DNA of 64,000 nt from Afipia felis ATCC 53690 (lineage in GTDB: Bacteria > Pseudomonadota > Alphaproteobacteria > Rhizobiales > Xanthobacteraceae). Every line of letters begins with the position of its first letter. Positions within the stretch are counted from its first letter, which is position 1. The DNA is taken from positions 930,001 to 994,000 of the forward strand of contig NZ_KB375270.1 in NCBI RefSeq assembly GCF_000314735.2, read 5' to 3'. The position numbers were made by a program, and so were the translations under genes. Of this stretch, positions 1 to 42,812 are shown one piece after another. The notes beneath the pieces are model-generated. The model was given only the letters and a program-made list of their open reading frames with translations. It was not told where the DNA came from and ran no database searches.

Positions 1-90
1 CTGCGCTTGCATGCCGGCCATCGCGCCGCCCATATGGCCCCGCATCATCTGCTGCATCATGGACATGCAGTTCTGCCGCATGTTCTGCAT
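1..90 (-). CDS. Met-rich protein, partial (runs off the window)
   Basis: An open frame of 30 codons from an ATG at 90 runs leftward off the window without a stop. About a third of its residues are methionine (patterns such as MSMMQQMM and HMGGAMAGM), the composition of periplasmic copper-binding peptides. It starts inside the last 34 bases of the OpgC-like gene in another frame. The upstream in-frame stop is at 109-111, so ATG at 90 is the only ATG start. The only ribosome-site-like sequence is an AGG immediately before the ATG. Copper binding is inferred from composition and location only; it could also be an accidental frame. Confidence 0.35.
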   Translation of the reverse strand, partial: MQNMRQNCMSMMQQMMRGHMGGAMAGMQAQ

Positions 91-22409: not shown

Positions 22410-23000
22410 GTGTGTCCCTATATGAAGGACAATGTCACAGGGGTTGTCTGGGTGCTGACAAACAAGCAGATCGAAGCTGGTGCCAAGGCGATTGCCGAGG
22501 ACATGATGCTGCCCGGCGGCGGTCGAAAGAAGCTGGCGCGGGTTGTTAACGACCATCTTGACTGGTTCGATGCGGTGGAAGCCCGCGGTTTGACGTGGGG
22601 CGACATGTCGCGGCTGCTGCTTGCCGCTGGCGCCCACGGCAGTGACGGCCGCGCAATTCCGATCGGGACACTGTCGTCAACCGTATGGCGCAAGCGGTCA
22701 GATGCCACGTCGCCGGCCTCCCGGGCGTCCACCAAAACTCACGCAACCGGTTGGGCCTCCCCTCGGATCGGCCAAGCAGAGCGTACCCGCGTCATTCCGA
22801 ACAAACCGCCGAGCCGCGCCGGCGACCAGAATTCTGTGGCACGAACCAAAAGCAAGTACGCCTCAAAGGCGAAGCAGCCAGCCATTCAACCAACAAAACC
22901 GGCATCTCGGACTGCGCCGAGCAATACGACAACCTCGAAAGCTCAGACGCTTGCCTTCATGAAACGAGCCGCATCGATCAGGCGTGGCCGGTCCGATTGA
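22410..23000 (+). CDS. Unknown protein with basic C-terminus
   Basis: A 196-residue protein not assigned to a family. Residues about 10-95 look folded (VWVLTNKQIEAGAKAIAEDM, RKKLARVVNDHLDWFDAVEA, LTWGDMSRLLLAAG), a helix-rich region that could bind DNA. The remaining half is low-complexity and basic, rich in Ser, Thr, Ala, Lys and Arg. The start is GTG 22410 or ATG 22422. It is the first gene of the mobile-element segment after the copper locus. A plasmid or element regulatory role is a guess from context. Confidence 0.6.
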   Translation: MCPYMKDNVTGVVWVLTNKQIEAGAKAIAEDMMLPGGGRKKLARVVNDHLDWFDAVEARGLTWGDMSRLLLAAGAHGSDGRAIPIGTLSSTVWRKRSDATSPASRASTKTHATGWASPRIGQAERTRVIPNKPPSRAGDQNSVARTKSKYASKAKQPAIQPTKPASRTAPSNTTTSKAQTLAFMKRAASIRRGRSD

Positions 23001-23549: not shown

Positions 23550-24464
23550 TCACCGGAGACCGGTGAGCCAATCGACTGCCTTTTGCGCGAGGGCTGCGGC
23601 GGCAAAGATCGCGCGCTTATCTGATTTGAGCACGGTCAGCCAACTGCCAAGGTAGGCCGCGTGGTCGGATCGCGGTTCGAGCGTGATGGAGAGGTCGGCA
23701 CAGAGAAATGCGGCACCTATCTCGGCGACGAGTTCTTCGCGCGCATATGCGTGGTCGCCAAAGCGCTTGCCAAGATCGCGGTCACAGCGATGCGGTGGCG
23801 AGGTCCAGTGGATCAGTTCATGCAGCACCGTCGCGTAATAGCCTTCGGCGGCGCTCGCCGTCGACGTATCGATGAATTGCGCATAGGGCGGCATTTCGAT
23901 GCGGTCGGCGGACGGAATATAGCAGGCGCGGTTGCCCCTGTGCACGATGGTCGCCCCGGTCGCGGCGATGAAGGCGTCGGCGAGCTCGATCCGAGTGGAC
24001 ACGGATTCTTTGATCGGGGACGGCTGAGCCGGTGTCGGCGCCGGCAGGCCATCGATCTGATCGGTGTTGAAGACAGTGTAGGCACGCAGCATGGGAATGC
24101 GCGTCACCGTCGCGTCGCCGGTCACAGCATCATCTTCGGCCCGTTCGATGGTCTTGGCATAGACCACGGTTGCGCCATGCTCGCCTTTGCGAACCTGCGC
24201 TCCGAGGGCTTGGGCCTGGCGGTAGGTCATCCATGTCGAGGACGAGTAGCCGTGCTCTATCGCCTCGGACCAGAGAATGAGAACATTGATGCCGCGATAG
24301 GGTGTGCCATCGCGGCGAAGCGGTCGGATTGAATCCGAGTCTTTGGACGTTGTGGTCCAGGGTTTGATCCACGAGCGGGTGCCCTGCTCCAGATCACGGA
24401 TGATGGTGTCGGTGACCCGCTGATAAATGTCGGCGCGCGGGTTCGCACTGAGATGCTTGCTCAT
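23550..24464 (-). CDS. ArdC-like antirestriction protein (zincin domain)
   Basis: A 304-residue protein. The N-terminal ArdC ssDNA-binding domain reads DIYQRVTDTIIRDLEQGTRS, IKPWTTTSK and YRGINVLILW, then WMTYRQAQALGAQVRKGEHG. The C-terminal metallopeptidase domain has the zinc motif HELIHWT and a downstream YAREELVAEIGAAFLC supplying the third ligand. ArdC-type proteins travel with conjugative DNA and protect incoming single strands or counter restriction. It is upstream of the XRE gene and downstream of a DUF736 gene on the same strand, a common order in alphaproteobacterial elements. Confidence 0.9.
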   Translation of the reverse strand: MSKHLSANPRADIYQRVTDTIIRDLEQGTRSWIKPWTTTSKDSDSIRPLRRDGTPYRGINVLILWSEAIEHGYSSSTWMTYRQAQALGAQVRKGEHGATVVYAKTIERAEDDAVTGDATVTRIPMLRAYTVFNTDQIDGLPAPTPAQPSPIKESVSTRIELADAFIAATGATIVHRGNRACYIPSADRIEMPPYAQFIDTSTASAAEGYYATVLHELIHWTSPPHRCDRDLGKRFGDHAYAREELVAEIGAAFLCADLSITLEPRSDHAAYLGSWLTVLKSDKRAIFAAAALAQKAVDWLTGLR

Positions 24465-27003: not shown

Positions 27004-29013
27004 TCATTCCGCCGCGATCATGCCCTCGGCGTCAGCGGTATGCTCAGCATCAGTCACCCCGTTAGTAGACGCGGGAACGATGGCCGGACCCGCAATGATC
27101 CGGGGAAGCCACCCGGTTCCGGCGACAAGCTGTTCGGCGGCTTCCGCCATCGGCGCCTTCTTCATGGCCGCAATGCGATCAGCGGCTTCCGGCCCGACCG
27201 CCTCACTAACGGCGGCGATGATGTGGTCCTTGGCGACACGGCCAAAGTAGGATCGCGCCGTCGGCAGCCAATGTTGACTCATATCGAGAGCAAGCACTGT
27301 CGCAAGCGTATCCGCTGCCGCCAACGCGCGCTGCCTCTTATCCCATGGCACTCTGACCGCGAACACGGTCAGCGCCGCGCAGTGTGCGAGCAGCGCCATG
27401 CGACTGTCGTGATCGAGTTCAACAACGAAGCTCCAGAGATCGGAAGGCGATTCTGGTAGTTGCACTGCCCATCGGTCATGGCGATCCGCCAACGCTGTTG
27501 CGGCAACGGTATCCTCAATGCCCTCGGCATGGGTCGCAAGTGCGGCACTTGTGGGCCGGATGTCGAGGCATGACACGGCTTGGTGATAAAACGTCTGCGC
27601 GACTATGGCATGGATGACCGCAATCAGCGCCACGTCCGGTTGCTCGCCCAGCGCGATGCGCAGACCAAGCGTGCGGTGCGCGGTCAGATCACGCACCAGC
27701 AAATCCGACAATGGCTTGCCGGTTGCTGCCTCATCGTCATGTCCGACCGACAGCCCGCCTTCCTCAAGGCCGTCCATTCCTGAGCGGCCATTGACTTCGT
27801 CCGCGCCCGTTGCCGAACTGTCGAAGTGCAGATGCTCGTCCTCACGACGGACAAAGCCGCGCTCGATCCGCAGTATCCCGTCATGATTAAGTATCACGAA
27901 CGCGCCGCAACGATTGACGACATCGGGAGCATAGGCCTCGCGCTTGGCGTCGATCCGTTCGATCTCGGCCTCAAGCTCGCCAAACCGCTCATCAATGTCG
28001 TCGGGCAACTCCTCTACACCCTCGAATTGCACCGTGAGAGCGTCGTAGGCCGCCTGCGCCGCCGCATAGGCCGCCGCGTCCTCCAGCGAGAGGTCAATCG
28101 GTGACGGATAGAGCCGCCGCAGGCCATGCGAATGCGGATAATCAAGATGAGCTTCCGTCCATCTCCAACCCTCCCGTTCGCAAAGCTCCGCAGCCGCGCC
28201 CTCCAGCTTCTCCTTGGCCAGACGGTGGAGCAATGCGGCGTCCTCCAGGTAGCCACCCTGATCCTCCGAGAACAGATCGCGCAGGATGGTCCCTCCCGCC
28301 ACCTCATAGGCTTCCAGCCCGACGAAGCGCGCACGGCGATCCCGCGCTGGAACATTAGTCTCGGTCAGCAATCGCCGGATCGCATAAGGCTCGCGGTTGT
28401 GGAGTAAACGTTCAAAGGCGTCTTCCTGCCGCACATGATCCTCGGTGAGGGCAAAGGCCATCAACTGATCCAAGGTCAGGTCGCCGTCACGATAGACCTG
28501 CATCAGCCTTGGCGAGACCGAACCAAGCCGCAACCGCTGGCGCACGACATGCGCGGTGACGCCGAACCGAGCCGCGATTTCTTCCGCGCCATAACCTTTT
28601 TCTTCCGCGAGATACTTGAACACCTCGAATTGATCCGCCGGATGCATGTCGCTCCGCGTGACATTTTCATCGAGAGAGATTTCTTTCGGATCGTTCGCGG
28701 TGTCGAGAACGCAGCGGATCGGTTCCGACTTCTTGATCTGCTTGCGCTTGGCACGCAACAATTGCGCCAGCCGCCGTCCTTCGCCGACGGTGACGAGATA
28801 AAACCCGGTCTCGGCACCGTCAGTATCGAGCTCGGGCTCGACCACAAGATTTTGCAACATCCCCTTGGCGGCGATGCTGCCCGCCAACGCTTCTATAGCG
28901 GCTTCGCCATGCGGCGTCTTGCGGGCGTTCTTCGGGGATTTCTTGAGCTTGCTGAGTGGGACGAAAATTTGCATCCCGCTCTCAACAACGGTTTCTGCTT
29001 GCTTGGCCGACAT
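27004..29013 (-). CDS. Large ParB/RepB/Spo0J-domain protein
   Basis: A 669-residue protein. The N-terminal ParB nuclease-like domain reads FVPLSKLKKSPKNARKTPHG, MLQNLVVEP and VGEGRRLAQLLRAKRKQIK. Next comes the ENVTRSDMHPADQF motif and a helix-turn-helix (GYGAEEIAARFGVTAHVVRQ RLRLGS). The remaining 400 residues are the long C-terminal extension seen in plasmid and integrative-element ParB-like proteins. A role in partition or in transcription of the element is likely. The ATG at 29013 has AAAAGGAGATCAATC upstream. No parA lies beside it; the nearest ParA-like ATPase is at 33833. Confidence 0.88.
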   Translation of the reverse strand: MSAKQAETVVESGMQIFVPLSKLKKSPKNARKTPHGEAAIEALAGSIAAKGMLQNLVVEPELDTDGAETGFYLVTVGEGRRLAQLLRAKRKQIKKSEPIRCVLDTANDPKEISLDENVTRSDMHPADQFEVFKYLAEEKGYGAEEIAARFGVTAHVVRQRLRLGSVSPRLMQVYRDGDLTLDQLMAFALTEDHVRQEDAFERLLHNREPYAIRRLLTETNVPARDRRARFVGLEAYEVAGGTILRDLFSEDQGGYLEDAALLHRLAKEKLEGAAAELCEREGWRWTEAHLDYPHSHGLRRLYPSPIDLSLEDAAAYAAAQAAYDALTVQFEGVEELPDDIDERFGELEAEIERIDAKREAYAPDVVNRCGAFVILNHDGILRIERGFVRREDEHLHFDSSATGADEVNGRSGMDGLEEGGLSVGHDDEAATGKPLSDLLVRDLTAHRTLGLRIALGEQPDVALIAVIHAIVAQTFYHQAVSCLDIRPTSAALATHAEGIEDTVAATALADRHDRWAVQLPESPSDLWSFVVELDHDSRMALLAHCAALTVFAVRVPWDKRQRALAAADTLATVLALDMSQHWLPTARSYFGRVAKDHIIAAVSEAVGPEAADRIAAMKKAPMAEAAEQLVAGTGWLPRIIAGPAIVPASTNGVTDAEHTADAEGMIAAE

Positions 29014-29508
29014 GATTGATCTCCTTTTGGCTTCATGGGCGCAGAGCGCACCTCGCGCCTGCGCCCTGCCGTCGGCGAGACCGGGGTAGCAAGGACAAGG
29101 GCGGCGGGGCGGAGGGGGATCACCCGGCCTGCACAAGCGATTTGAAGCGTGAGAATTTTCGCAGCGATCCGCGCGGAAGGTCGGGGAAACCGCGCCGGCC
29201 GGTCCCGGATCTTCCGGGACTTCACCCTTGCCCGCGCGAGGGCGGAGCCATTAGCTCTTAAACAGAAAAAATGCCGTCTGTGCCGTAGCGAAGCGAAGGT
29301 CAGTCGGCAGTTGCGAGACCGGTCAAAAAGGCACCCGCAGGAAGGTCAGCATAGCGCCGCCGGCGTGCCAACGGCGGCGGGACCCGGGACCGAGTGCCTC
29401 CGGCGAGCGGCTCAATGAAGGTTTGTTTCGCCCGCCGCGCGAAGGCCGTATCGCCAACACCTCAGTTGGAGCCTGCTAGACGATGCAGCTTCCGATACTG
29501 CGCGAGCA
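29014..29508. other. Non-coding stretch upstream of the ParB-like gene
   Basis: About 495 bases of GC-rich sequence with no gene supported by start, ribosome site and composition. It presumably holds the promoter of the ParB-like gene; no clear operator was found. Confidence 0.4.
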
Positions 29509-30435
29509 TCAGACGTGACGGAGCAATCTTTTCAAGTCACGTTCAGCTTTGCTTTGACGGTTCGGAATAGGCGGGCCCCTTGGAGCCAACTCCGGTTTCT
29601 CGCCAACCTTTTTCGTTTCAGGATCAACCTCTACGATTCCAATATTCTGGAGCTCCAGATCTTCGCACATCGTGCGAACGAGCCATATCGGCGACCAAGG
29701 CGGCATCAGGATCCAAAAATTTCGAAAGAACGTGGACTCGGTCGCGACGCGGGTCATACGTTTGGCCGTCTCGTCTTGTGCGACATCTCCGTAAATGGAA
29801 TAACAATCCACCGCATCGACGACGAGTTCATTATTCGAATCTCGAAACGCGATGACGAGATCGGGACTCGCATAGCGAAGACCTCCCGACCACCTGACCA
29901 CCTTCACCTTCTCGGCTCCGGAAAATTCCGGAAGTATCGCTGCATTCGTTTGAGTGAGCAGTTCAAGGCAAAAACTTTCGAACTGTCGCGCCGCGCGCTG
30001 ACCAGCAGCGATCGAAGAAGTCTGGGGCGCGCTATCCCGGATCTCGTGGAAGCGTTCTTCTAGTTCACGATAGGTGGGTATTCGGTTTGCCGTCAGACAC
30101 TGCCGGATCAATTCCACCCCCTTATCCCGATCGACCTTGGAAATGCGCGCCAGTATCTCGATCTGGCTGAACGGCAACGATCGGAGCAGCTTGTCCAAAT
30201 CAAATGGATAATCGAGGGCCAACTGCTCGATGGCTTTAATCGTTCGCTGCATTTTCCGGAGTTGATTGAGGCCATGACCTGTTTCCGCGGCGACGACCCT
30301 GGCCCAGGGGCGACCGTGCTCATCCATGATGCCCGCGGCTTCGAGCGCGGTGAGGGCATGAGTAACGTCGACCCAAGTGACGGCGCTCTGCTTAATGGAA
30401 CTGAGAATTGAAAAGGCATCTGGCGTACTAACCAT
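29509..30435 (-). CDS. Unknown protein, possible nuclease-like C-terminal domain
   Basis: A 308-residue protein of no recognised family. The N-terminal third is helical and could bind DNA (VTWVDVTHALTALEAAGIMD, VVAAETGHGLNQLRKMQRTI). The C-terminal half has a strand pattern LRYASPDLVIAFRDSNNELV then VDAVDCYS, suggesting but not proving a PD-(D/E)XK-type fold. The tail is basic (QSKAERDLKRLLRHV). It is transcribed away from the gene at 30606, and the shared promoter region holds a 22-bp-period direct repeat. Function unknown. Confidence 0.65.
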   Translation of the reverse strand: MVSTPDAFSILSSIKQSAVTWVDVTHALTALEAAGIMDEHGRPWARVVAAETGHGLNQLRKMQRTIKAIEQLALDYPFDLDKLLRSLPFSQIEILARISKVDRDKGVELIRQCLTANRIPTYRELEERFHEIRDSAPQTSSIAAGQRAARQFESFCLELLTQTNAAILPEFSGAEKVKVVRWSGGLRYASPDLVIAFRDSNNELVVDAVDCYSIYGDVAQDETAKRMTRVATESTFFRNFWILMPPWSPIWLVRTMCEDLELQNIGIVEVDPETKKVGEKPELAPRGPPIPNRQSKAERDLKRLLRHV

Positions 30436-30483
30436 TGATTTACCTAGATTTTCTGGAACCGATCCAAACTAGTTGACGAATTG

Positions 30484-30524
30484 TGTACTTTCCGTATATG
30501 AATTATGTACTTTCCGTATATGAA
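30484..30524 (+). repeat. Two direct repeats with 22-bp period
   Basis: TGTACTTTCCGTATATGAA occurs at 30484-30502 and again, without mismatch, at 30506-30524. A 22-bp period is about two helical turns, so a protein could bind both copies on one face. They sit between the divergent genes at 30435 and 30606. Confidence 0.75.
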
Positions 30525-30605: not shown

Positions 30606-31046
30606 ATGAAGATCAAGGTCGCCGATAAGAGCGTGAAGAAAATCCAGAATGCGCTGGATCACGCTAACGGCGGGGCGCGCAAGCACACGGCGCTCCCCAG
30701 CGACATCTTCGCCCTTGCACGTAGGGCGGAAGAGTCGCTCGTCGCGAGCGGCCTGCCCGCCCGCGATCGCTCGGGGTCCGAGGTAGTCTGGCACGCGGAA
30801 GGCCCATCGACGAACGCCTACAGCTACAAGATGCTGCGCACGCGCATCACCCTGACGCGCGGCTTCGAGAACTGGTTCTTGACTGGCCTAGAGCGCATCG
30901 GTGTGTACCCACGCCAAAGCGAACTCTATCGCATTACGATCTCGTCAGCACAGCGCCACCGCATCGTGGCAGTGGCGCTCGCCATCTTCCAGGTGCGCGA
31001 CAACATGGACGCCGACACCACGCCGGCCGTGGTGGAGATGGTCTAG
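30606..31046 (+). CDS. Unknown protein
   Basis: A 146-residue protein with AAAGGAG eight bases before the ATG. A basic N-terminus (KIKVADKSVKKIQNALDHAN) precedes a compact domain (AYSYKMLRTRITLTRGFENW, SSAQRHRIVAVALAIFQVRD). No family is recognised. It is the first of three or four rightward unknown genes between the repeat-bearing promoter and the transfer genes. Confidence 0.65.
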   Translation: MKIKVADKSVKKIQNALDHANGGARKHTALPSDIFALARRAEESLVASGLPARDRSGSEVVWHAEGPSTNAYSYKMLRTRITLTRGFENWFLTGLERIGVYPRQSELYRITISSAQRHRIVAVALAIFQVRDNMDADTTPAVVEMV

Positions 31047-31749: not shown

Positions 31750-32418
31750 ATGTTTACACGGCTAATAAATGTCGCGGGCTTTGGCTTTCAGAACTCCCTC
31801 GATCAACGAGAGCTTCAGAGACGATACGATGACATCCTTCGACATCTGGATGTCAGGCGTGCGCGCCTCCAGCTTTCCAGTATCGATAATGCCGGTTTCC
31901 AGGAACTGCTGGTGCAGCTTGACGACCTGAGTATTGTCATCGGCGCTGACGCGCTCTTGCCAGTCGACGCTGCCCGAGCTCTTCCGAGATTCGGGCTGAC
32001 GCTTGTTCTTCCCAAGCGACGACCGCTGATCTGGCTTAACCTATTCAAGCACACGGATGCGATAACGCTTATCGACACCGTCGCGCATGAAGCGATTCAC
32101 GCAACGGTCAACCTGCTCGGACGCCATCCGCAAACCCCACAGCCGACAAACGAACTCGCCTATCACGCAGAGGAAATCGTGGCCCTGAGCGGCGCGAACT
32201 GGATTTTGAACCGGATCGGAGCTCCTGCAAACCACCAGATCGCACAGAACCTTGCCACCATCGATCACCACGCAGAGATATTGATCGGCCTTGGGCGCAG
32301 CCCGGCTTTCCTGCAGCAGAAAAGTGCGGAGGGCGTTGCCGCCGCGAAATTTCTGATGGAGCCACATTTGATTGAGGTCGCCGCCCCCACCTTGGCCGAC
32401 CTAAACGCGTGTCGATAG
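31750..32418 (+). CDS. Predicted zinc metallopeptidase-like protein
   Basis: A 222-residue protein with a zincin signature: DTVAHEAIHATVNLLGRHPQ, where HEAIH gives two zinc ligands and the general base, followed 20-odd residues later by LAYHAEEIVALSGA, which can supply the third. The N-terminal half is unassigned. AGAAGGAG precedes the ATG. It resembles the peptidase domain of ArdC-type proteins in layout but lacks the N-terminal ssDNA-binding part. Substrate unknown; it may be an antirestriction or cell-wall-related factor of the element. Confidence 0.65.
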   Translation: MFTRLINVAGFGFQNSLDQRELQRRYDDILRHLDVRRARLQLSSIDNAGFQELLVQLDDLSIVIGADALLPVDAARALPRFGLTLVLPKRRPLIWLNLFKHTDAITLIDTVAHEAIHATVNLLGRHPQTPQPTNELAYHAEEIVALSGANWILNRIGAPANHQIAQNLATIDHHAEILIGLGRSPAFLQQKSAEGVAAAKFLMEPHLIEVAAPTLADLNACR

Positions 32419-32447: not shown

Positions 32448-32465
32448 TCTTCGTTCCTGAAATTT
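32448..32465 (+). promoter_or_regulatory. Conserved 18-nt element, copy 1
   Basis: TCTTCGTTCCTGAAATTT, identical to the copies at 33738 and 37127. It ends 48 bases before the ATG at 32514. It is too well conserved in otherwise unrelated intergenic DNA to be chance. Confidence 0.7.
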
Positions 32466-32513
32466 CAACGGGGAGCTTAGGCCACCATGCGTGGATGAAA
32501 TGCGAGGCCCTTC

Positions 32514-33716
32514 ATGAACAATTTTCCAACCATCAGACCGGTTACCCTGCAAGCAGCGATCAGGGAGCTTAACTTCCACCCTCGCCCCTTCGTTGTTGTT
32601 AACACTGGGTGCCACACGACGGAGCATATCGAGTTCCCATCAGAGATATTTGAAAAACTGCCCGACGGATTTACCGGCGACCTCTTCGTGGCGCCGACGA
32701 CCCTGGCAGAGCTCAACGGCGCCGGGCTCGCCCTCGGGCGTCGTCGGGAACAGTTTCTCGCAGGCGAATTTGTCCTCATCTTTGTCGACTTGCTGCATGG
32801 AATCCTGGAGCGCGCCCACGGCGGCCAGACCGCTGGGGACTTAGAGGAGCGCGCCCGCGATGGCCTGCGGGTAACCATGACGTTGGCGACGGAGAGGATA
32901 CGGGCATGCGTCGACCTGCGGGAGCATCGCAAACTTAGCACTGAGACGCGTCGTAGTGAGATTTTTACGTGCTTCGAACCGCATCTGGCCGGGTTTAGGG
33001 CGATCAACACCTTTCGCGAGGGCCAGGAACTCATCAAGAAATGGTATCCTGGCAAGACGTCGCACCGAACGATGAAATCGGCCTATACGAGTGTTGCAAC
33101 GTTGCCAGGGGCCAGACTTGGAAAAGTAGATCTTGTCGCCATCGAAAACGAGCAGATGGATCTCGTTCGCACCGCGGGCTCTGTCTATAGCAAAACGCTT
33201 GCCTTCCTCGCCGCTCAACATGAAATGTCGGACATGCTGCGCGAACTGAAAGAAAGCGCCGAATTCACGAATGCCACAGACGAAGAGCAACACGCCATGA
33301 TGGCCGGACTGCTGCGTGAGAAGGGCCCGGCGCAGCACCAGACGCTCGCACATGACGAGCAACACAGCCCCTCACTTGTCCAGTTGATGCGTGCCGCGAA
33401 TGGCATGAACTTCAATCCGGCATGGGTTTTCCTGAACGTGCGTGCCTACACGACCGAGCTCGATTGCGCCATGTTGCTCGGGCGAGCGGAGCGCGGCATC
33501 GGCGCGATGTTCAAGCCGGAGCAGATTGCGAGGCTCAAGCGGTTCATGGCGCTGGGCGAAATCGCCGGTGACGGCGCCAGTGCTAACGAAGAACTTCAAG
33601 CGGCAAAGACCTTGCGAGAGCATGCATTACGCGTGAGGTCGCAAGCGGGATGGGACGAGTTCTTTGCGATTGCGTCGGCTGACGGCGGGTCGCTGTGGGT
33701 AACAAAAGCGCTGTAA
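32514..33716 (+). CDS. Unknown protein under the conserved 18-nt element
   Basis: A 400-residue soluble protein of no recognised family. Features include FHPRPFVVVNTGCHTTEHIE, APTTLAELNGAGLALGRRRE, and a central helical region rich in charged residues (AAQHEMSDMLRELKESAEFT). The C-terminal part has NPAWVFLNVRAYTTELDCAM. No membrane segment or signal peptide is seen. It is preceded by the conserved element shared with the TraL-like and relaxase genes, so it is probably coregulated with DNA transfer. Confidence 0.65.
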   Translation: MNNFPTIRPVTLQAAIRELNFHPRPFVVVNTGCHTTEHIEFPSEIFEKLPDGFTGDLFVAPTTLAELNGAGLALGRRREQFLAGEFVLIFVDLLHGILERAHGGQTAGDLEERARDGLRVTMTLATERIRACVDLREHRKLSTETRRSEIFTCFEPHLAGFRAINTFREGQELIKKWYPGKTSHRTMKSAYTSVATLPGARLGKVDLVAIENEQMDLVRTAGSVYSKTLAFLAAQHEMSDMLRELKESAEFTNATDEEQHAMMAGLLREKGPAQHQTLAHDEQHSPSLVQLMRAANGMNFNPAWVFLNVRAYTTELDCAMLLGRAERGIGAMFKPEQIARLKRFMALGEIAGDGASANEELQAAKTLREHALRVRSQAGWDEFFAIASADGGSLWVTKAL

Positions 33717-33737
33717 CGACGGCCCCGCACGAATAAA

Positions 33738-33755
33738 TCTTCGTTCCTGAAATTT
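33738..33755 (+). promoter_or_regulatory. Conserved 18-nt element, copy 2
   Basis: Same 18 bases as copies 1 and 3, ending 77 bases before the ATG of the ParA/TraL-like gene. The next 25 bases also resemble those after copy 3 (TTCGG, then ATTG). Confidence 0.7.
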
Positions 33756-33832
33756 TCAAGGCACCTTCGGCTTATTGAAACGGCTCCGCAGCAATCCCGA
33801 CACATGCATGGTCGGGATCAAAGGAACCCCGT

Positions 33833-34681
33833 ATGGCAAAATCTGTTCCTCTCGCTTCTGTTTCGCACGCTCCGCTCTTGATGGTGGTCGATGGTGACGT
33901 CGGCGGCGTCGGAAAGTCGACCCTCGCCACCCTAATCGCCATGTGCTGCTCGCTGGTCGATGTCGAGCTCGACGTTTTCGAGCTCGATGAGCAGGGTAAG
34001 CTTGCGCGCTTCTTAGGGCATGACAATGTTGTCAGTCTTCATGGCGCGATTCTTAATGCCGATGCCGACGGTGAGCGCGACCTGGTGCCGGTCTTTGCAC
34101 CGCTTCATCGCGCACTTGTTGCCATGCCCGCCACCAAGCGCTCTGCGATCCTCGAAGTCGGAGGCGCTCTGACCGGTGTGTGGAACAGCTTCATTCGCGA
34201 GGCAGACCTGGAGGAAGATCTGGTGGCCGTAGCCATCCCCCTCGTCGTCTTTCTGGTGCTGATCGCGGGTGAAGAATCGGCGCGCCAGGTCCTGGGCCAG
34301 ATCAAAGAGCTGCGCCGCACCTTGCCTTCGGCGAAACTCGTCATCGTCCGTAACGAGCGTGACGGTTGTCCGGTCACCGAGGCCAAGGAGCTGCCGGCGG
34401 ATTTGCGCAAAGCTCTGGAGCAGACGCTTAAGCTCTATCCGTCGATCCGCATGCCCAGACTGCGCCTGAAATCGCGCCGGATTTATGAAAAGTTGGGATT
34501 GCCGCCATCGACTATTATTGCCTGGCACCGCGAGCACTATCGCGAGGCCATCGCCCGGACGGGCCGGCCGCTGCTTGAAGCCAAGCGACTGGTCAAAGAC
34601 ATCGCTGCCTGGTCGGAAAGCGTGCGCTCCGAACTCGTCGGCCTGTTGCCGTTTCTGGGAGGCGGTGACCGTGACGCGTAA
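33833..34681 (+). CDS. ParA/MinD-type ATPase, TraL-like
   Basis: A 282-residue P-loop ATPase. The deviant Walker A is DGDVGGVGKSTLATLIAMCC (residues about 20-39), with the signature lysine pattern GGVGKST of the ParA/MinD class. Downstream ELDEQGKLARFLGH and AILEVGGALTGVW fit the fold. Plasmid TraL proteins of the transfer operon share this architecture, and the position directly before coupling-protein and relaxase genes supports that role. It overlaps the next gene by 11 bases. Partition of the element rather than transfer is the alternative. Confidence 0.78.
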   Translation: MAKSVPLASVSHAPLLMVVDGDVGGVGKSTLATLIAMCCSLVDVELDVFELDEQGKLARFLGHDNVVSLHGAILNADADGERDLVPVFAPLHRALVAMPATKRSAILEVGGALTGVWNSFIREADLEEDLVAVAIPLVVFLVLIAGEESARQVLGQIKELRRTLPSAKLVIVRNERDGCPVTEAKELPADLRKALEQTLKLYPSIRMPRLRLKSRRIYEKLGLPPSTIIAWHREHYREAIARTGRPLLEAKRLVKDIAAWSESVRSELVGLLPFLGGGDRDA

Positions 34682-35291
34682 GCTCAATGAATTCTTGAAA
34701 GACGTGGAAAGCGCGACGGCCAAGGCGAATGCCGCCGATGCCAAGGTGGTCGAGAAGTTGAAGACGCTCTCGGCGGAGGATTTTGCTCGCCTGCCACGGC
34801 CACTCCTGAACAATCTCTCCAACCGGCAATATCGGGAGATCGTTCACTCGATCGCGCCTACCGTCACGCTGAAACGAGAGCCGGCGCTGGTCCACTCCAA
34901 CCGATCAGGCAGGAAACATCATTCGTTCAGCACCTGGTTTCCACGGTCGGCGACCGCGGCGAGCCTTGCAATTGTGGCAGGTCTTCTGGTTCTGATCGTT
35001 GGTGTCGGCGCAGGGCCAATGTTGGAATGGTGGTCGTATGGCAAGCCGCTGAACCGCGCTGCCTCAACCGCAGAATGGCCGCGTTGTCCGAGCCTGACGA
35101 GATGGACCGACGGCTGCGTCTATCGCGTTGTCAAAGGGCTGGACTGGGCCGAGGCAGCCTACGATCTCGCGCTTCCCGAGAGCTATTTGCGGAAGCTGAA
35201 CCACCATATTCCATCGCAAGTCATTCCTGCCCAGTCCGACCTGATCGTCTGGCGCGCGCGATTTGCACTGCAAACGGAGCGCGTTCGATGA
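34671..35291 (+). CDS. Membrane protein with LysM-like C-terminal domain
   Basis: A 206-residue protein starting at GTG 34671, preceded by GGGAGG and overlapping the ATPase gene by 11 bases. The first 80 residues are helical and charged (RKLNEFLKDVESATAKANAA). One membrane segment follows (ATAASLAIVAGLLVLIVGVG). The C-terminal periplasmic part CVYRVVKGLDWAEAAYDLAL then IPAQSDLIVWRAR resembles a LysM module, which would bind peptidoglycan. It overlaps the coupling-protein gene by four bases (ATGA). A role in anchoring the transfer apparatus to the wall is inferred. Confidence 0.7.
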   Translation: MTRKLNEFLKDVESATAKANAADAKVVEKLKTLSAEDFARLPRPLLNNLSNRQYREIVHSIAPTVTLKREPALVHSNRSGRKHHSFSTWFPRSATAASLAIVAGLLVLIVGVGAGPMLEWWSYGKPLNRAASTAEWPRCPSLTRWTDGCVYRVVKGLDWAEAAYDLALPESYLRKLNHHIPSQVIPAQSDLIVWRARFALQTERVR

Positions 35292-37093
35292 AGCTGGCAA
35301 AATATGAGCGGCGTTCGCCCCTTGAAGCAACACGTATCACGATCGCCGTGAGCATTCTGATCGGAACGATAGCCTGCATAGTCACGATGGAACTCGCTCC
35401 TCTTGTGATCTGGGTGGACGATCACACTCAGTTCATGACTGCAACATGGTTGGCGCAGGGGTGGCAGGATTACTTCCGAACCGCCTTCAGCGCGATGTCG
35501 AGGTCTGACGACATTGTTGCCACGATGAGCACGACCCTTGTTGCATCTTTAGTCGCCACAGCTCAATGGACCTCAGATAATTTTGTGATGATGGCTTTGG
35601 GGCGAGTGCTGGCTGTAGCGCTGACAGCAGTTATCGCTGCTGCATCGATATCGTACGCTATGATGATCTCGAATGCGCCGGTCGTCGATACCAGAGAGCA
35701 TGTTGACGGTATGCGCCTATTGCGGGGTAAAGAAGGTCTCGGTCATCTGCGTGCTATCACGGGAAACGAATCCGGCAAACAGCCAGCGGGACTTGAGATC
35801 GCGCCCGGTGTTTCGTTGGCGAAACTGCGCGAAATCCGTGGCACATTGATCTTGGGTGCGATCGGCAGCGGCAAAACCCGCATCCTCCTTTATATTCTGG
35901 ATCGTGTCCTCGATGCAATCAAGACCAAACCTCAGCGCCGAATTCGCTTGTTGGTCCACGACACGACAGGCGAGTTGCTGGACGGATTGCCGCTTGAAGA
36001 CAATCAATTCGCGGCCCTGCATGGCGCACGCCCGGGCGGTTGGGCCTGGGCGATCGGCCGTGATGTTTTGACTGCTTCTGATGCCGAGTCAGTGGCAGAT
36101 GCGATGGCGCCGAAAACCGGCGACATGTGGGGCGCCGGCGCTTCGATCTTTCTCGCTGCCGCGCAAATCAAATGCCAGCACGAGCACAACACGTCCTGGG
36201 GAATAGCGGAGTTCTACGACAATTTGTTGGAAGACCCGATTACGCTGAAACCATTGTACGAAAGGATTTACCCGGTCGCGGCCTCGCTGATCGAAATAGA
36301 TCCTGTCACCGGCGCACTGTCGAAGACGACGGTATCGTTCTTGCTCACGTTTCGAGCAGCGGTTTTGCGCTACCTGCGGCCACTTGCCGAAAACTGGCGG
36401 GACGTTCCAGGCGAAAGACAATTCTCCTTCATTGAATGGCTGGAGGGCTCCAATCCGGCGTATCCCGCAGTGGTCGTGCTACAGCGCGCGGGAAAATATC
36501 CGCAAATGTCGGCCGCCTGGATTGGTGCCGTCGTCGACACCATCGCGGGGCACGTCAATGACGCCTCCTTCTCGAACTCACAAGATCGGCGCGTTCTCCT
36601 CGCTCTTGAGGAATTGGCGACGCTCGGCAAATTGAAAAATTTCAGCACCCTGCTGGACACCGGCAGGAACAAAGGCATCGGCGTGTTCGCGTCTGTCCAA
36701 GAACCCGAGCAGCTCGCGATTCACTACGGTAACGAGGAAGCGAAGACCATTCTTAAACGCTTCCGAACGAAAATCATCTGTCAGCAGGTTCTGGATGCGG
36801 ACACCGACGATTTTTCGATAGCTCATATCGGCAAGCGAACCGTCATCGAGACGACTGAAACAAAATCCGCCACAACAGTTAAAGGCGTTACGACGACCGC
36901 GGTCACGCGCAACGAAACCAATAAGGAAGTTCCGAGCATTCGCGGAGAACGCCTTGCCTACGATCTCGGAGTGCATGGCGACCGGATAAGGGCGATTATC
37001 GCAGGCATGGAGGATCCCGTCGAAGCCGAATGGCCGCTGACAATCTGGCCGCGCCGACGCAATCTTCCTGTCGGCAAGCCTGGAAGCGGCTGA
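35288..37093 (+). CDS. VirD4/TraD-like type IV coupling protein
   Basis: A 601-residue ATPase. Two N-terminal membrane stretches (ITIAVSILIGTIACIVTMEL and MALGRVLAVALTAVIAAASI) are followed by a cytosolic motor domain: Walker A GAIGSGKT (about 190-197) and Walker B-like LLALEELATLGK (about 438-449). The C-terminal VFASVQEPEQLAIHYGNEEA with AKTILKRFRTKIICQ is typical of TraD/VirD4. Coupling proteins bring the relaxase-bound strand to the type IV secretion channel. The ATG overlaps the previous stop by four bases. The length fits the family. Confidence 0.88.
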   Translation: MKLAKYERRSPLEATRITIAVSILIGTIACIVTMELAPLVIWVDDHTQFMTATWLAQGWQDYFRTAFSAMSRSDDIVATMSTTLVASLVATAQWTSDNFVMMALGRVLAVALTAVIAAASISYAMMISNAPVVDTREHVDGMRLLRGKEGLGHLRAITGNESGKQPAGLEIAPGVSLAKLREIRGTLILGAIGSGKTRILLYILDRVLDAIKTKPQRRIRLLVHDTTGELLDGLPLEDNQFAALHGARPGGWAWAIGRDVLTASDAESVADAMAPKTGDMWGAGASIFLAAAQIKCQHEHNTSWGIAEFYDNLLEDPITLKPLYERIYPVAASLIEIDPVTGALSKTTVSFLLTFRAAVLRYLRPLAENWRDVPGERQFSFIEWLEGSNPAYPAVVVLQRAGKYPQMSAAWIGAVVDTIAGHVNDASFSNSQDRRVLLALEELATLGKLKNFSTLLDTGRNKGIGVFASVQEPEQLAIHYGNEEAKTILKRFRTKIICQQVLDADTDDFSIAHIGKRTVIETTETKSATTVKGVTTTAVTRNETNKEVPSIRGERLAYDLGVHGDRIRAIIAGMEDPVEAEWPLTIWPRRRNLPVGKPGSG

Positions 37094-37126
37094 ACGGGGA
37101 CGTTCGCAGGGGGATTCTCGCGAAAA

Positions 37127-37144
37127 TCTTCGTTCCTGAAATTT
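37127..37144 (+). promoter_or_regulatory. Conserved 18-nt element, copy 3
   Basis: Same 18 bases as copies 1 and 2, ending 47 bases before the relaxase ATG at 37192. Confidence 0.7.
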
Positions 37145-37191
37145 GCAAGCCAGTTCGGACGTAATTGGAAGGCCTCATTATCGAGGTTTTC

Positions 37192-39948
37192 ATGGTCACG
37201 CGCCCGAACAAGGTCTTCTCCGCGACGTACTTTACCCAGGAGCTGGAGTCCGCGCGGTATTTTCTCGCGGATTCCAACCTCAGCGCCTTCTGGCTGACGG
37301 GCGACGCGCGGTTTGGCGTACAAGCAGGCGCTGCTCTCAATCCCACTCACTTCGAGCGGCTGTTCGAGGGCCGCGACGAGAGCGGTCAGTCGCTGCTGCT
37401 GCAAAATACGGGGCTGAGGAAGCGCATCAGCGCCTACGAACTCTCGGTCGGCGTCTCCAAATCGGTTTCAGCCGCGTGGGCATTGGCGTCCCCGCAAGAC
37501 CGTGCGGCAATCGAGCAGGCCTTTTGCAAATCGCTGAACGCGGTGTCGGATCACGTTTGCCGCAACTCCTTCACGCGGCTTGGCCATAACGGCAAGGTCT
37601 TCACGCCGGTGCAGCCGAACATCGCGTGCTTCATTCAACCTGACACGCGCCCGGTTCTGCAAGCCGACGGCGCGGTGGCGATACAGCCTCAGTTGCATGC
37701 ACATTTAATTTTGCCAAACTTGGTGGCGATCCAGCCCCACGAATTGACTCTATCGGAGCGAAATCGCGCGCCACACGCTCAGGGCGATACGGGCAAGATT
37801 CCGTTGCGCTACCTAACTCGCTCGTTGGACGGCCAGCCGCTCTATCACGGCGCCAAGTCATGGGGAGCAATTCAGCACTTGGCCTGCGCGACTGAATTGC
37901 AAAAGCTTGGTTACTGCATCGGTGACATCGGGCCCAACGGCACCTTCGAGATCGTGCCACCATCGCACGAACGGGATGCCGACGAGCGCTTACGACACTT
38001 CTGGAGTGCACGCCGTAAGGAAATCGAAAACGAGCTCTCCGAAGCAGGTTTGACCACGGCGGAATCGCCTGAGCTCGCCGCAAGGGCCGCCGTTAAAACC
38101 CGACGCGCCAAGGTCGCCACCTCGGAAGATACATTCGCTCGCTGGCGTCGCGAAGCGGAAACGCTTGGCGTCAATGTCGAGCGATATACCGAATATCGTC
38201 GTGAACTGGAGATGCCGTCACCCACTCTCCATGATTCCGCAATTGCTATCCGAATGGCGGATATCCCACGGCGACTGACGGAATTCGAGGCGACATTCGA
38301 TCACCACGACCTCATCCGGGAGGTGGCGTCCGCCCTCATCGGCACTGGCGTGGAAGTCTCACGCGTCGACGAAGAAATAGCGAAACTCTCCGAGAGTGGT
38401 GCGATTGTTGAGATCGGACGGACCGAACGGGAACGCATCTTCTCCACGCAGGAAATGATCCACTTGGAACGCGAAGTGGTCGAGGCATCCGGCCGCCTTG
38501 CGATAAAACCATGGCATCCCATCGATCGCGCTCGGCTGGTGGATTTCTGTTTGTCGGCAAATCTTTCAGACGAGCAGACGGCGGCCGTGCTCGGCGTCGC
38601 CAACCGCCGTTCGATCGACTTCATCGAAGGCCGCGCCGGGACCGGCAAGACCACAACCCTGCAGCCACTATGCCGCGCACTTGAGAAAAATTTCCGAATT
38701 ATCGCAACGGGGGTAAGTTGGCGCACGGCGCGCATGCTTGAAGATGAACTGTCCGGTCCTGACCCACGTTCGCATGTTGAGGCCAGGGCTCTCGATTCCT
38801 GGCTGGCGTTAGACAAAGCCGGTGGCCACTTCTGCGATGGACGCACGCTCCTCCTGGTGGACGAAAGTTCGCAGATTGGCGTTCGCGCCATGCACAACCT
38901 GCTGACTGAGGTCGAACGCTCGGGAGCTTGCGCTTTATTTTTGGGCGACCGCGCTCAAACATTAGCTGTGTCGGCTGGGTCAGGCATCGAGCTTGTCGCC
39001 CGCACCGTTGAGGCTGCGGAAATCTCGAAAGTAGTTCGCCAGAGCGACCCGCAACTGCGCCTGGTAGTCGAACAGCTGGCGAGGGGTGATGTCGTCACCG
39101 CGTTGGAAACGATGGCCGACCGCGACTGCATCATCGAGGCAGACGGTCAGGCTGCGACCGTCAAAACAGCGGTCGACAATCTCTTCGCACGGCGCGCCGC
39201 CACCCCTGAAAAATCGCACCTGTTAATCTGCAAATCCAACGCCATGCGCCTCGCGCTCGATTCGGAAGTTCGCCGTCGCCTGCGCGCCGAAGGCCTCTTA
39301 ACCGGAGAAGACGTTAGAATTGATGCCGTAACCCCCTCCGGACGGGCCTACCGCCTGTCGCTGGCCAAAGGTGACCGAATCCGTTTCGGCATCCGTTGCG
39401 ACATCTCCGATCATCGTGTGATCAACGGCACGATCGGAAAAATCAGCGACATCGTCGCGGAGGAGGACGGCCACGCGCTGATCGCGGCAGACGTCGATGG
39501 ACACGAATTGCTTTTTTCGTCGCGCGAAGTCGTGGATGACCGCGGGCGGATCCGACTCGCGACCGACTACGCCAGCACCATCTGGTCGTCCCAGGGGCTT
39601 ACCAGCCATTCCGCGACCATCGTCACCGACGCCGCTTTCGACCGTAGAGACATCTATGTAGCCCTCAGCCGAGCGAAGCAGCAATCGACCCTTTGCGTCG
39701 ATTCGCGCGCCCTGAATTTTGCCATCCGCGCGGAAACCGGTTTCGATCGGTCTGCAGAGGACATCACGGTCGAAGAACGGCGCGAGCATCTGGTGCGGCA
39801 GATGTCACGTTGGCGTACAAAAACGTCGACGCTTGACTTTGTATCAGATCGCTCCGCCTTGGAGAGCAAGGAGCACCTTCGAGACGGACGAGCGGCCACC
39901 AGCCGACGCGCACGCGGCCTCCAAGCTGAGGCGGAGGCTGGTCTGTGA
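37192..39948 (+). CDS. MobF/TraA-like relaxase-helicase
   Basis: A 918-residue protein with an N-terminal MobF relaxase domain and a C-terminal RecD-like helicase. Tyrosines at 13 and 23 are candidates for strand nicking. YELSVGVSKSVSAAWALA is the usual MobF motif. The metal motif is PQLHAHLILPN (His169, His171), but the first histidine of the usual three appears as Gln149 (FIQPDTR instead of FxHxTSR). The helicase has GRAGTGKTTTL (about 480), LLLVDESSQIG, and a C-terminal YVALSRAKQQ. The ATG at 37192 has GAGG upstream and was chosen over a TTG at 37165. It nicks and unwinds the element for transfer. Confidence 0.9.
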   Translation: MVTRPNKVFSATYFTQELESARYFLADSNLSAFWLTGDARFGVQAGAALNPTHFERLFEGRDESGQSLLLQNTGLRKRISAYELSVGVSKSVSAAWALASPQDRAAIEQAFCKSLNAVSDHVCRNSFTRLGHNGKVFTPVQPNIACFIQPDTRPVLQADGAVAIQPQLHAHLILPNLVAIQPHELTLSERNRAPHAQGDTGKIPLRYLTRSLDGQPLYHGAKSWGAIQHLACATELQKLGYCIGDIGPNGTFEIVPPSHERDADERLRHFWSARRKEIENELSEAGLTTAESPELAARAAVKTRRAKVATSEDTFARWRREAETLGVNVERYTEYRRELEMPSPTLHDSAIAIRMADIPRRLTEFEATFDHHDLIREVASALIGTGVEVSRVDEEIAKLSESGAIVEIGRTERERIFSTQEMIHLEREVVEASGRLAIKPWHPIDRARLVDFCLSANLSDEQTAAVLGVANRRSIDFIEGRAGTGKTTTLQPLCRALEKNFRIIATGVSWRTARMLEDELSGPDPRSHVEARALDSWLALDKAGGHFCDGRTLLLVDESSQIGVRAMHNLLTEVERSGACALFLGDRAQTLAVSAGSGIELVARTVEAAEISKVVRQSDPQLRLVVEQLARGDVVTALETMADRDCIIEADGQAATVKTAVDNLFARRAATPEKSHLLICKSNAMRLALDSEVRRRLRAEGLLTGEDVRIDAVTPSGRAYRLSLAKGDRIRFGIRCDISDHRVINGTIGKISDIVAEEDGHALIAADVDGHELLFSSREVVDDRGRIRLATDYASTIWSSQGLTSHSATIVTDAAFDRRDIYVALSRAKQQSTLCVDSRALNFAIRAETGFDRSAEDITVEERREHLVRQMSRWRTKTSTLDFVSDRSALESKEHLRDGRAATSRRARGLQAEAEAGL

Positions 39949-40935: not shown

Positions 40936-41102
40936 CCCTATGCTGAAACGGTGAAGCCTATTCGGGGCGGAGGCGCGCGCAGCAACGCTCAGGAAGAATC
41001 CTCAAGCGACAGCGAAAATCGATTAACCGCCTGGAAAATAAGGCTTTGCGGTGGCGTCCCGAACTGCAAGACTCGTCCCAATTCTTTGAAACTGGAAAGC
41101 GT

Positions 41103-42794
41103 ATGAGCAACCGTAAGCGCCAAGCAAAACCTATCCCTGGGGCCAACAGGACCCGCGTCGCTCTGTACCTGCGCGTCTCAACGGATCGACAGCGGCAGCA
41201 CGACCTGTCGATCCCGGATCAACGCACGCAAATTTTGTCTTGGTGCAAAACCCAGGGCAATGAGGCGGTCGCGGAATTCGTCGAGGCCACGACCGGGACC
41301 GACGACAAACGACCGGTATTCCAGCAAATGATCGAACGGGCCTGCGATGGCGACAATGCGTTCGATGTCATCGCCGTGCATAGCTATAGCCGGTTCTTTC
41401 GCGACGCGTTCGGCCAGGAGTTTTATCTCCGCAAGCTCGCCAAACAGGGCGTCAAGCTGGTTTCGATTACGCAGCCCCTCGGCGACGAGGATGACCCGGC
41501 GCAGGCGATGATGCGGAAGGTCATTGCGCTGTTCGATGAATATCAATCCAAAGAGAACGCAAAACACGTACTGCGCAATATGAAACTCAACGCTCAGCAG
41601 GGTTTCTGGAACGGTTCGCCCGTCCCTCTTGGCTATGTCCTCGTCGAGGTCGAGAAGCGCGGCACCAAGATCAAGAAGACCCTGGCCATCGACCCCGTCG
41701 ATGCCGAAACTATCCAGCTCATTTTCAAGCTCTATCTCCGTGGCGACGGCACGTCGGGCGCGCTTGGCGTCAAAGAAGTCGTGAAATGGCTCAACAGCCG
41801 CGGCTATCGCACGCGCAAGAGCAAAACGTTTGGCGTTGGCACCATCTACAAGATCCTCACCAACACGACCTATAAGGGTGAGTGGAAATTCAACCGGATG
41901 TCGTCCCGCACCGGCAAATGGAAGCCTGAGGAAGAGGTCGTCACGTCAGCGGTTCCCGCGATCATCGAACCTCATCTGTTTGAGCAGGTCCAACGCCAGC
42001 TTCATGCCCGCAGCCCCAAGGTCGCCGCGCCGCGCGCGACAACCGGACCGATCCTGCTCACCGGTCTCGCCGTATGCGCAACCTGCAATGGAGGAATGAC
42101 GCTGCGGACCGGCACTTCGAAAACCGGTGCCGTCCATCGTTACTATACGTGCTCGACCTGCGCCCGAAAGGGCAAGACGGTCTGCAAAGGCCGGTCGATA
42201 CCTATGGACAAGCTCGACAATCTCGTCACCACCCACATGACCGAACGACTGTTTCAGCCGGAGCGTCTGGCCGTGATCTTGTCCTCGCTGGCATCACGGC
42301 GCTCGGAAAAGGCAGACGCTGTCAATGCCCGTGTCATCGCTTTGCAGCGCGAGGTCGCCGACGCCGACGACAAGCTCAAGCGGCTCTATCGGCTGGTCGA
42401 GGACGGCATGACCGAAATGGACGACGTCCTCAAGGATCGCCTGAACACCCTGAAGGCCGATCGGGACCGCGCCAAGGCGGCGCTCGAGCGCGCCAAATCG
42501 CATTCGTCGCAAGCCATCCGGATCGACCCCGCATTGCTTGAGCAGTTCGGTCGCACCATGCGGGAGAACATCACCTCCGGATCGATTCCATTCCGCAAGG
42601 CCTATCTGCAGTCCCTCATCGACGTGGTCGAGGTCGACGATGCCCAAATCCGGATCAAAGGCAGCAAAGACGTGCTTGAAAGGGCGGTCCTGGCCGGCCG
42701 AAATGGGACCGTACCGGGTTCGCAGATGAGTACTGAGTGGCGCTCCCTAGCGGAATCGAACCGCTCTCTCCACCGTGAAAGGGTGGCGTCCTAA
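41103..42794 (+). CDS. Large serine recombinase (integrase)
   Basis: A 563-residue site-specific recombinase. The N-terminal resolvase domain has the catalytic serine in VALYLRVSTDRQ (Ser26) and the SYSRFFRDAFGQE region. Next come the Recombinase domain (NAQQGFWNGSPVPLGYVLVE) and the zinc-ribbon (VCATCNGGMTL ... YYTCSTCARKGKTVCKG). A coiled coil of about 60 residues follows. The last 19 or so codons are read from the tRNA-Glu gene in antisense, ending at 42794 (SLAESNRSLHRERVAS). The start at 41103 is preferred over an upstream ATG. It most likely integrates and excises the island at this tRNA. Confidence 0.9.
   Translation: MSNRKRQAKPIPGANRTRVALYLRVSTDRQRQHDLSIPDQRTQILSWCKTQGNEAVAEFVEATTGTDDKRPVFQQMIERACDGDNAFDVIAVHSYSRFFRDAFGQEFYLRKLAKQGVKLVSITQPLGDEDDPAQAMMRKVIALFDEYQSKENAKHVLRNMKLNAQQGFWNGSPVPLGYVLVEVEKRGTKIKKTLAIDPVDAETIQLIFKLYLRGDGTSGALGVKEVVKWLNSRGYRTRKSKTFGVGTIYKILTNTTYKGEWKFNRMSSRTGKWKPEEEVVTSAVPAIIEPHLFEQVQRQLHARSPKVAAPRATTGPILLTGLAVCATCNGGMTLRTGTSKTGAVHRYYTCSTCARKGKTVCKGRSIPMDKLDNLVTTHMTERLFQPERLAVILSSLASRRSEKADAVNARVIALQREVADADDKLKRLYRLVEDGMTEMDDVLKDRLNTLKADRDRAKAALERAKSHSSQAIRIDPALLEQFGRTMRENITSGSIPFRKAYLQSLIDVVEVDDAQIRIKGSKDVLERAVLAGRNGTVPGSQMSTEWRSLAESNRSLHRERVAS
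42738..42794. other. Candidate att site / right edge of island
   Basis: The 3' part of tRNA-Glu shared with the integrase frame. Element genes are to the left, housekeeping genes to the right. No second copy of the tRNA 3' end was seen elsewhere in the window, so the other attachment end is probably outside it. Confidence 0.5.
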
Positions 42795-42812
42795 CCGATA
42801 GACGAAGGGAGC
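42738..42812 (-). tRNA. tRNA-Glu (anticodon TTC)
   Basis: On the minus strand this folds as a complete tRNA with CCA encoded. The acceptor stem is GCTCCCT/AGGGAGC with discriminator G; the anticodon stem CCACC/GGTGG encloses CTTTCAC, anticodon TTC (Glu); the T arm is AGCGG-TTCGATT-CCGCT. The 3' end faces the serine recombinase, whose reading frame overlaps 57 bases of it. The usual orientation for an island inserted into the tRNA 3' end is preserved. Confidence 0.95.

Follow-up and report, generated by a model that had tools for sequence, protein, structure and literature searches.

What may bring the genes of a mobilisation module under common control is the question raised by a locus of Afipia felis ATCC 53690, in which one 18-nt element, TCTTCGTTCCTGAAATTT, occurs three times, always on the forward strand, within a stretch of 64 kb (contig NZ_KB375270.1, positions 930,001 to 994,000; hereafter the window). 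A first-pass annotation of this DNA had reported identical 18-nt sequences at 32448, 33738 and 37127, 47–77 bases before genes, and had taken them as probably defining a transfer regulon. Exact copies are present at all three positions, upstream of a gene for a 400-residue protein (U400), an operon encoding a ParA-like protein, a coupling protein and, between the two, a protein of 206 residues, and the gene for a MobF relaxase, and we think it probable, from the sequence comparisons below, that three promoters are co-regulated through the 18-mer as a site in their −35 regions. The copies and the genes behind them, in window coordinates, are:

32448..32465, forward strand: 18-mer copy 1, upstream of U400, kept in relatives
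32514..33716, forward strand: U400, first gene of the putative regulon; no Pfam family at E ≤ 0.01; 60 relatives
33738..33755, forward strand: 18-mer copy 2, upstream of the ParA-like operon, kept in relatives
33833..34681, forward strand: ParA-like P-loop protein (PF01656, E 0.00068, under the curated cut-off)
34671..35291, forward strand: 206-residue operon protein, with relatives in the four other close elements
35288..37093, forward strand: type IV coupling protein of TrwB/TraD type (PF10412, E 7.1e-39)
37127..37144, forward strand: 18-mer copy 3, upstream of the relaxase, kept in relatives
37192..39948, forward strand: MobF relaxase-helicase (PF08751, E 4.9e-34; NF041492 over its cut-off)

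Allowing up to three mismatches, a scan of the window returns just these three matches (shuffled sequences give a mean of 0.03, and 0/100 reach three), and a scan of the whole genome (G000; 4,203,290 bases in 11 contigs) returns the same three, with none outside the window and none for a backwards control. The gaps from 18-mer to start codon measure 48 (ATG 32514), 77 (ATG 33833) and 47 bases (ATG 37192); the relaxase start was set at ATG 37192 rather than at the TTG 37165 of the open reading frame (ORF) caller because the leaders and starts of relatives align there. The short downstream likeness that had been remarked between copies 2 and 3 is also real, consisting, in this order, of TTCGG, of TATTGA or TAATTG at 17 nt past the 18-mer and of the beginning of an inverted repeat. 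Across a collection of 84,980 genomes, the exact 18-mer occurs in 15 stretches, where chance would supply about 7.5 by our own arithmetic. Three of these lie in transfer modules; 10 of the other 12 fall within reading frames of 340 codons or more, and the remaining 2, in Bacteroidota, do not. Many copies unrelated to transfer would speak against a transfer regulon, and within this genome there are none.

In close relatives, the 18-mer likewise has three copies per element. We compared five close elements: that of the window, L058 (A. birgiae), L057 (a metagenome-assembled genome (MAG), putatively Pseudolabrys), L055 (putative Bradyrhizobium) and L056 (putative Hyphomicrobiales MAG). Relatives of U400 at E ≤ 1e-40 are found in 5/391 family genomes, and a U400 search of the genus of G759 gave 2/126 genomes, one of them new and partial (G1163). 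Across the five elements, the order U400, ParA-like operon, MobF is syntenic, and the 18-mer is present at 15/15 sites with at most three substitutions. The window, L058 and L057 carry the form TTCGTTCCTGAAAT (one L058 copy has a single G-to-A change), L055 and L056 the C form TTCGTTCCCGAAAT (two L056 copies have single further changes), and the T or C at the variable position is uniform across all three copies inside each element. Identity of the module proteins among the five goes down to 47–57%, and to 33–35% in MobF. Between the window and L057, L055 and L056, identity over the 40 bases before the 18-mer is 7–20% at site 1, 23–33% at site 2 and 33–40% at site 3, and over the 17-nt spacer that follows it 29–65%.

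When the 15 sites are aligned over 130 columns, 12 invariant columns fall inside the element and 1 outside it. This sole outside column is an A, the second base of a hexamer that starts 17 nt past the 18-mer and that resembles a −10 box:

32483..32488, forward strand: CACCAT, 17 nt past copy 1; weak, with the A at position 2 kept
33773..33778, forward strand: TATTGA, 17 nt past copy 2
37162..37167, forward strand: TAATTG, 17 nt past copy 3

At sites 2 and 3 of the five elements, the hexamer reads TATTGA, TAATAG, TAATAA, TAATTG or TAGTTG, and the same 17-nt spacing recurs at site 2 of G1163 and at the MobF site of L091, which differs from the 18-mer at 4 positions, with TAATAG and TAATTG, respectively. 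A sigma-70 consensus scan finds no match at the three places. This architecture fits a promoter dependent on a protein bound at its −35. A palindromic operator was considered and rejected, the TTCG/CGAA arms being intact in some C-form copies alone and broken in the T form, as was an ECF-type −35 read through GGAAC on the other strand, for which a by-eye look gave no second box.

Beyond the close elements, coupling-protein searches covered 149 family, 385 class and 397 order genomes, the U400 search covered 29 genus genomes, and plasmids were also searched. These reached distant modules in G414, G242, G249 and plasmid pMaqPC3 of Methylobacterium aquaticum, plus a 3.7-kb contig of G525. Three of the four distant relatives repeat a different word at the equivalent places, above shuffles: G249 has ATTCATTTCC upstream of three genes; pMaqPC3 has AATCAGGTTTTCATTC upstream of ParA, a small ORF and MobF (the test took in three of the four regions); and G414 has ACTCAGAATCCATC upstream of ParA and of the gene in the U400 place (U), with a partial match upstream of MobF. 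At widths of 10 and 14, 0/100 shuffles equal these words, and at width 18 the counts are 0, 0 and 4 of 100 for G249, pMaqPC3 and G414, respectively. The U ORF of G414 as called begins 9 nt past the element, and the real start codon probably lies farther downstream. G242 contains two modules, L091 with a TTTGTTCCTGAAAT element and L092 without it; this difference, seen in one assembly, points to a specificity that belongs to the element rather than to the host. Taken with the conservation at three genes and the fixed 17-nt hexamer spacing, these other words support, at sequence level, the regulon that the first-pass annotation had proposed.

Several observations accompany this survey. The coupling-protein matches of G242 contain internal stops on both contigs (L091, L092), and pMaqPC3 (L062, L063; NZ_CP043630.1) includes a large repeated block with most of the module twice, a dimer or an assembly artefact. 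The 568-residue protein at the U place of M. aquaticum was examined and is not a U400 relative. A relaxase-bearing plasmid of M. oryzae (L061) has no relative of the element at 10 bits, its own repeats not having been searched for, and G131 (L094) has a coupling-protein match of 26% identity. The plasmid collection gave no match to U400 or to the copy-2 region. No U400 or coupling-protein relative was confirmed on viral contigs; a degenerate 18-mer is present in 4 of them, none with a module protein. TTCRTTYC was noticed as a possible core common to lineages. Among open-licence papers, judged by titles and abstract openings, we found no description of this element.

A further layer of control may lie in the leaders. 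The window stretches concerned are:

33780..33832, forward strand: ParA leader stretch, ending before ATG 33833; no excess loss on truncation
37168..37191, forward strand: 9-bp hairpin abutting the −10 and the relaxase ATG, its 3′ arm containing GAGG

The folds covered the stretch that runs from the −10 up to the start codon in nine leaders each of ParA and MobF and in six of U. By folding, the nine modules have a hairpin before ParA and MobF (in G525, MobF only) that starts at or near the −10 and whose 3′ arm reaches the ribosome-binding stretch, a placement relative to the −10 that is new here. The U400 leader, unlike those of ParA and MobF, has no such hairpin after its −10. The computed hairpins reach z ≤ −2 in 9/9 ParA, 8/9 MobF and 0/6 U leaders. 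For an RNA starting 7 nt past the −10, the loss of stability exceeds that of shuffles (z ≥ 2) in 7/9 ParA and 8/9 MobF leaders (15/18 together) and in 1/6 U leaders. Accessibility predictions support a leader lock only in part. A general role as terminators was rejected: a T run follows some of these hairpins (MobF of G242 and L056) and is missing after those of G249 and G414 MobF.

From the element, its conservation, its spacing and the hairpins with their place, which can be read directly, we infer promoter activity, activation, a start site, a factor and the lock. The 18-mer would be the −35-region recognition site at three coordinately controlled promoters, one driving U400, one the ParA-like/206-residue/coupling-protein operon and one the MobF relaxase. 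The 18-mer would be bound by a dedicated factor, most likely borne by the element and possibly supplied by a helper, which would recruit RNA polymerase, in a class II-like manner, to the −10 exactly 17 nt downstream; relatives with other words would have partner factors of other specificity. At the ParA operon and the relaxase, RNA from the own promoter would start inside the 5′ arm of the hairpin, would hence lack that arm and would be translatable, whereas read-through RNA would keep the arm and stay locked. An activator site at three mobilisation promoters, joined to such a leader lock, is in our judgement the likeliest explanation as a whole, and one we hold with some confidence.

Several points weigh against this explanation. 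The hexamers at site 1 of the five elements (CACCAT, AATAAT, CATGGT or GAAGAT) are poor −10s. In G242, L092 has no significant shared word (18 to 25 of 100 shuffles equal it), the pMaqPC3 word is absent upstream of the U-position gene, and scanning the MobF leader of G525 with the 15-site matrix gives nothing at 10 bits. In the distant lineages, the spacing to the hexamer was picked by eye and is thus no test of spacing. As to the leaders, those of ParA in the window and in L058 and of MobF in G414 show no excess loss, and the ribosome-binding stretch is predicted to open by more than 0.2 in 3/9 ParA and 4/9 MobF leaders (7/18), and also in 2/4 U leaders. Because several leaders are related and the hexamer place in four distant modules was set by eye, these are not 18 independent tests. 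Finally, we infer promoter activity, start sites and activation over repression, and the factor is a candidate only.

The candidate that we consider beside U400 is K160, a small protein of about 160–215 residues in which we read a stretch like a helix-turn-helix (HTH):

22410..23000, forward strand: K160, small HTH-like protein, candidate regulator; relatives in A. birgiae, L066, L070, L064, L092, L093 and L060

K160 lies directly upstream of U in G414, G242, G249 and pMaqPC3, and farther off in the window, in A. birgiae (at 82% identity), in L066 and in L070; the short contig of L056/L068 showed no copy. The motif LSSxVWRKR is common to K160 of the window, L066 and L070, whereas the four lineages whose elements are different deviate from it, a pattern that shared ancestry alone could explain. 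Neither protein has a convincing family or PDB match (for K160, weak single hits to DUF6471 at E 0.0071 and GcrA at E 0.13; for U400, none better than 0.02). The Pfam scan of element proteins, which covered part of the element's genes, returned no activator of the SetCD/AcaCD family, and a helper could supply one.

Other roles for the 18-mer must be weighed against an activator site. Were it a repressor operator over the −35, silencing the three promoters in the integrated state, its position at −47 to −30 would suit steric blocking and the fixed spacing would fit too; we regard this as rather unlikely, as no sigma-70 −35 or good −10 would be left to fire once freed and repression does not require a single exact spacing, neither of which is decisive. 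Direct reading of the 18-mer and the hexamer as the two boxes of an alternative sigma factor would account for the exact 17-nt spacing, the invariant A in the downstream box and the asymmetry of the site. An upstream box of 18 bases is long for a sigma factor, however, and no sigma-like family is found among the module proteins scanned, which are part of the element's proteins, so that we consider this improbable. There is a modest chance that the factor comes from a conjugative helper, in the fashion of AcaCD of IncC, the island carrying the site only. The window has no VirB4 of the element's own, and AcaCD-responsive promoters in mobilizable islands are documented (PMC8409611); a helper should itself carry the site, yet outside the window the genome, where both VirB4 matches lie, shows no copy within three mismatches, although the helper may simply be missing. 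Least probable by far are centromere-like sites of a ParA/ParB partition system. A ParA-like gene does follow copy 2 and a protein with a ParB HTH match is encoded at 27004–29136, but the TTCG/CGAA dyad is broken in the T form, and the place close to start codons and the fixed −10 spacing would be left needing another explanation. The ParB-like protein, moreover, finds no more than short matches, of 24 residues, in those stretches of A. birgiae that were searched, although the 18-mers are kept there; it was rejected as the 18-mer factor.

The inverted repeats after the −10 could also act as DNA, as an operator or part of an oriT (origin of transfer), and not as an RNA lock. We give this a good deal of credence, short of an even chance: a dimeric protein could make use of perfect repeats over the presumed start just as well, and all nine folded modules have a repeat immediately ahead of the relaxase gene. 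Against a role as DNA, the repeat sequence varies by lineage while the pairing and the place at the ribosome-binding stretch are kept, and a like repeat precedes ParA as well.

As to the nature of the element, it has a relaxase and an integrase of its own, the MobF protein and a large serine recombinase:

41046..42794, forward strand: large serine recombinase (PF00239, PF07508, PF13408)
42738..42812, reverse strand: tRNA-Glu gene overlapped by the recombinase end, the likely insertion site

All VirB4 (PF03135) and P-loop_TraG (PF19044) matches of the genome fall outside the window, and for this reason the module appears to be the mobilisation portion of an element that is integrative and mobilizable rather than self-conjugative. 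The tie between U400 and conjugation suggested by the first-pass annotation is thereby refined to one with mobilisation, which the shared element and the synteny in five close elements support. The tRNA-Glu gene is likely the insertion site; a 14-base repeat of it, which would mark the other end, was found neither at another place in the window nor within 18 kb to the left of the window.

Left of the module lie efflux, multicopper-oxidase, CopD and P-type ATPase genes, and OpgC-family proteins (window 57–1271 and 10130–11326) bracket the block of metal-efflux and CopD genes. Nearer to it are an ArdC-type anti-restriction protein with a zincin-like domain (23550–24464; 91% identical in A. birgiae), the 710-residue protein with the ParB HTH match (27004–29136), whose relatives in L066 and L092 are 43–45% identical, and a 222-residue protein (31750–32418) with a HEAIH stretch, zinc-protease-like by eye, for which A. 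birgiae gave the sole match among the relatives compared. Between the divergent ORFs at 29509–30435 (reverse) and 30606–31046 (forward), a 22-nt unit, GAATTGTGTACTTTCCGTATAT, stands in two tandem copies (30478–30521), possibly an operator or origin; it is absent at up to three mismatches from 11 related loci searched.

Known systems offer partial parallels. The activators SetCD and AcaCD belong to an FlhDC-like family. SetCD sites of SXT/R391 are 19-bp sequences near the −35 of transfer promoters, in class II position (PMC4344509). Like them, the present site belongs to an element that integrates and would lie close to the −35 of its transfer promoters, and the same site precedes several transfer genes (3/3 in each of the five close elements); unlike in that system as there described, the sequence is unrelated as far as seen, no SetC- or SetD-like protein was identified and the hosts are alphaproteobacterial. 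In SGI1-like mobilizable islands, AcaCD-responsive promoters answer to an activator from the IncC helper (PMC8409611). Those islands lack a full type IV secretion system of their own, as the present element appears to, and likewise have one site common to several transfer promoters, whereas here the site occurs nowhere else in the genome. T4 gene e and I-TevI have a hairpin that hides the ribosome-binding site in long transcripts and a dedicated promoter within its 5′ arm, whose own RNA lacks that arm (PMC3014915, PMC2988022). A stable hairpin over the ribosome-binding site of the long RNA is found here by computation; the T4 cases concern phage late promoters, and here a relaxase and a transfer operon would be controlled, as judged from folding. 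Integrative mobilizable elements described in Mesorhizobium have a MOBF relaxase, most with traACD loci (PMC8627217). The MOBF relaxase on integrated Hyphomicrobiales elements is shared with the present case, which differs from most of them in the ParA-like/206-residue/coupling-protein operon before the relaxase and in its large serine recombinase.

To our knowledge, how transfer genes are switched on is known for few mobilizable islands, and the comparison islands with a known switch in this analysis are gammaproteobacterial. The same tag, or a lineage's own tag, stands in the same places of related islands, which suggests one dedicated switch that would turn the transfer genes on together. 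For the U400 family, 60 unnamed proteins, the shared regulon proposes a first role. The regulon is legible from sequence, with three sites per genome, a site that changes by lineage and few candidate partners; with its edge this sharp and the candidates few, matching of regulator and site should be feasible by ordinary reporters. A two-level lock in alphaproteobacterial mobilizable islands, composed of a promoter element that is private to them and diverges fast, a regulator from a new family that the island itself encodes (K160 or U400), and start-dependent hairpins, is a tentative proposal that we rate as somewhat doubtful. If true, the placement of the hairpins would give an integrated element a simple means of keeping silent despite read-through, and with both levels in place, read-through from the chromosome or the cargo would yield no relaxase.

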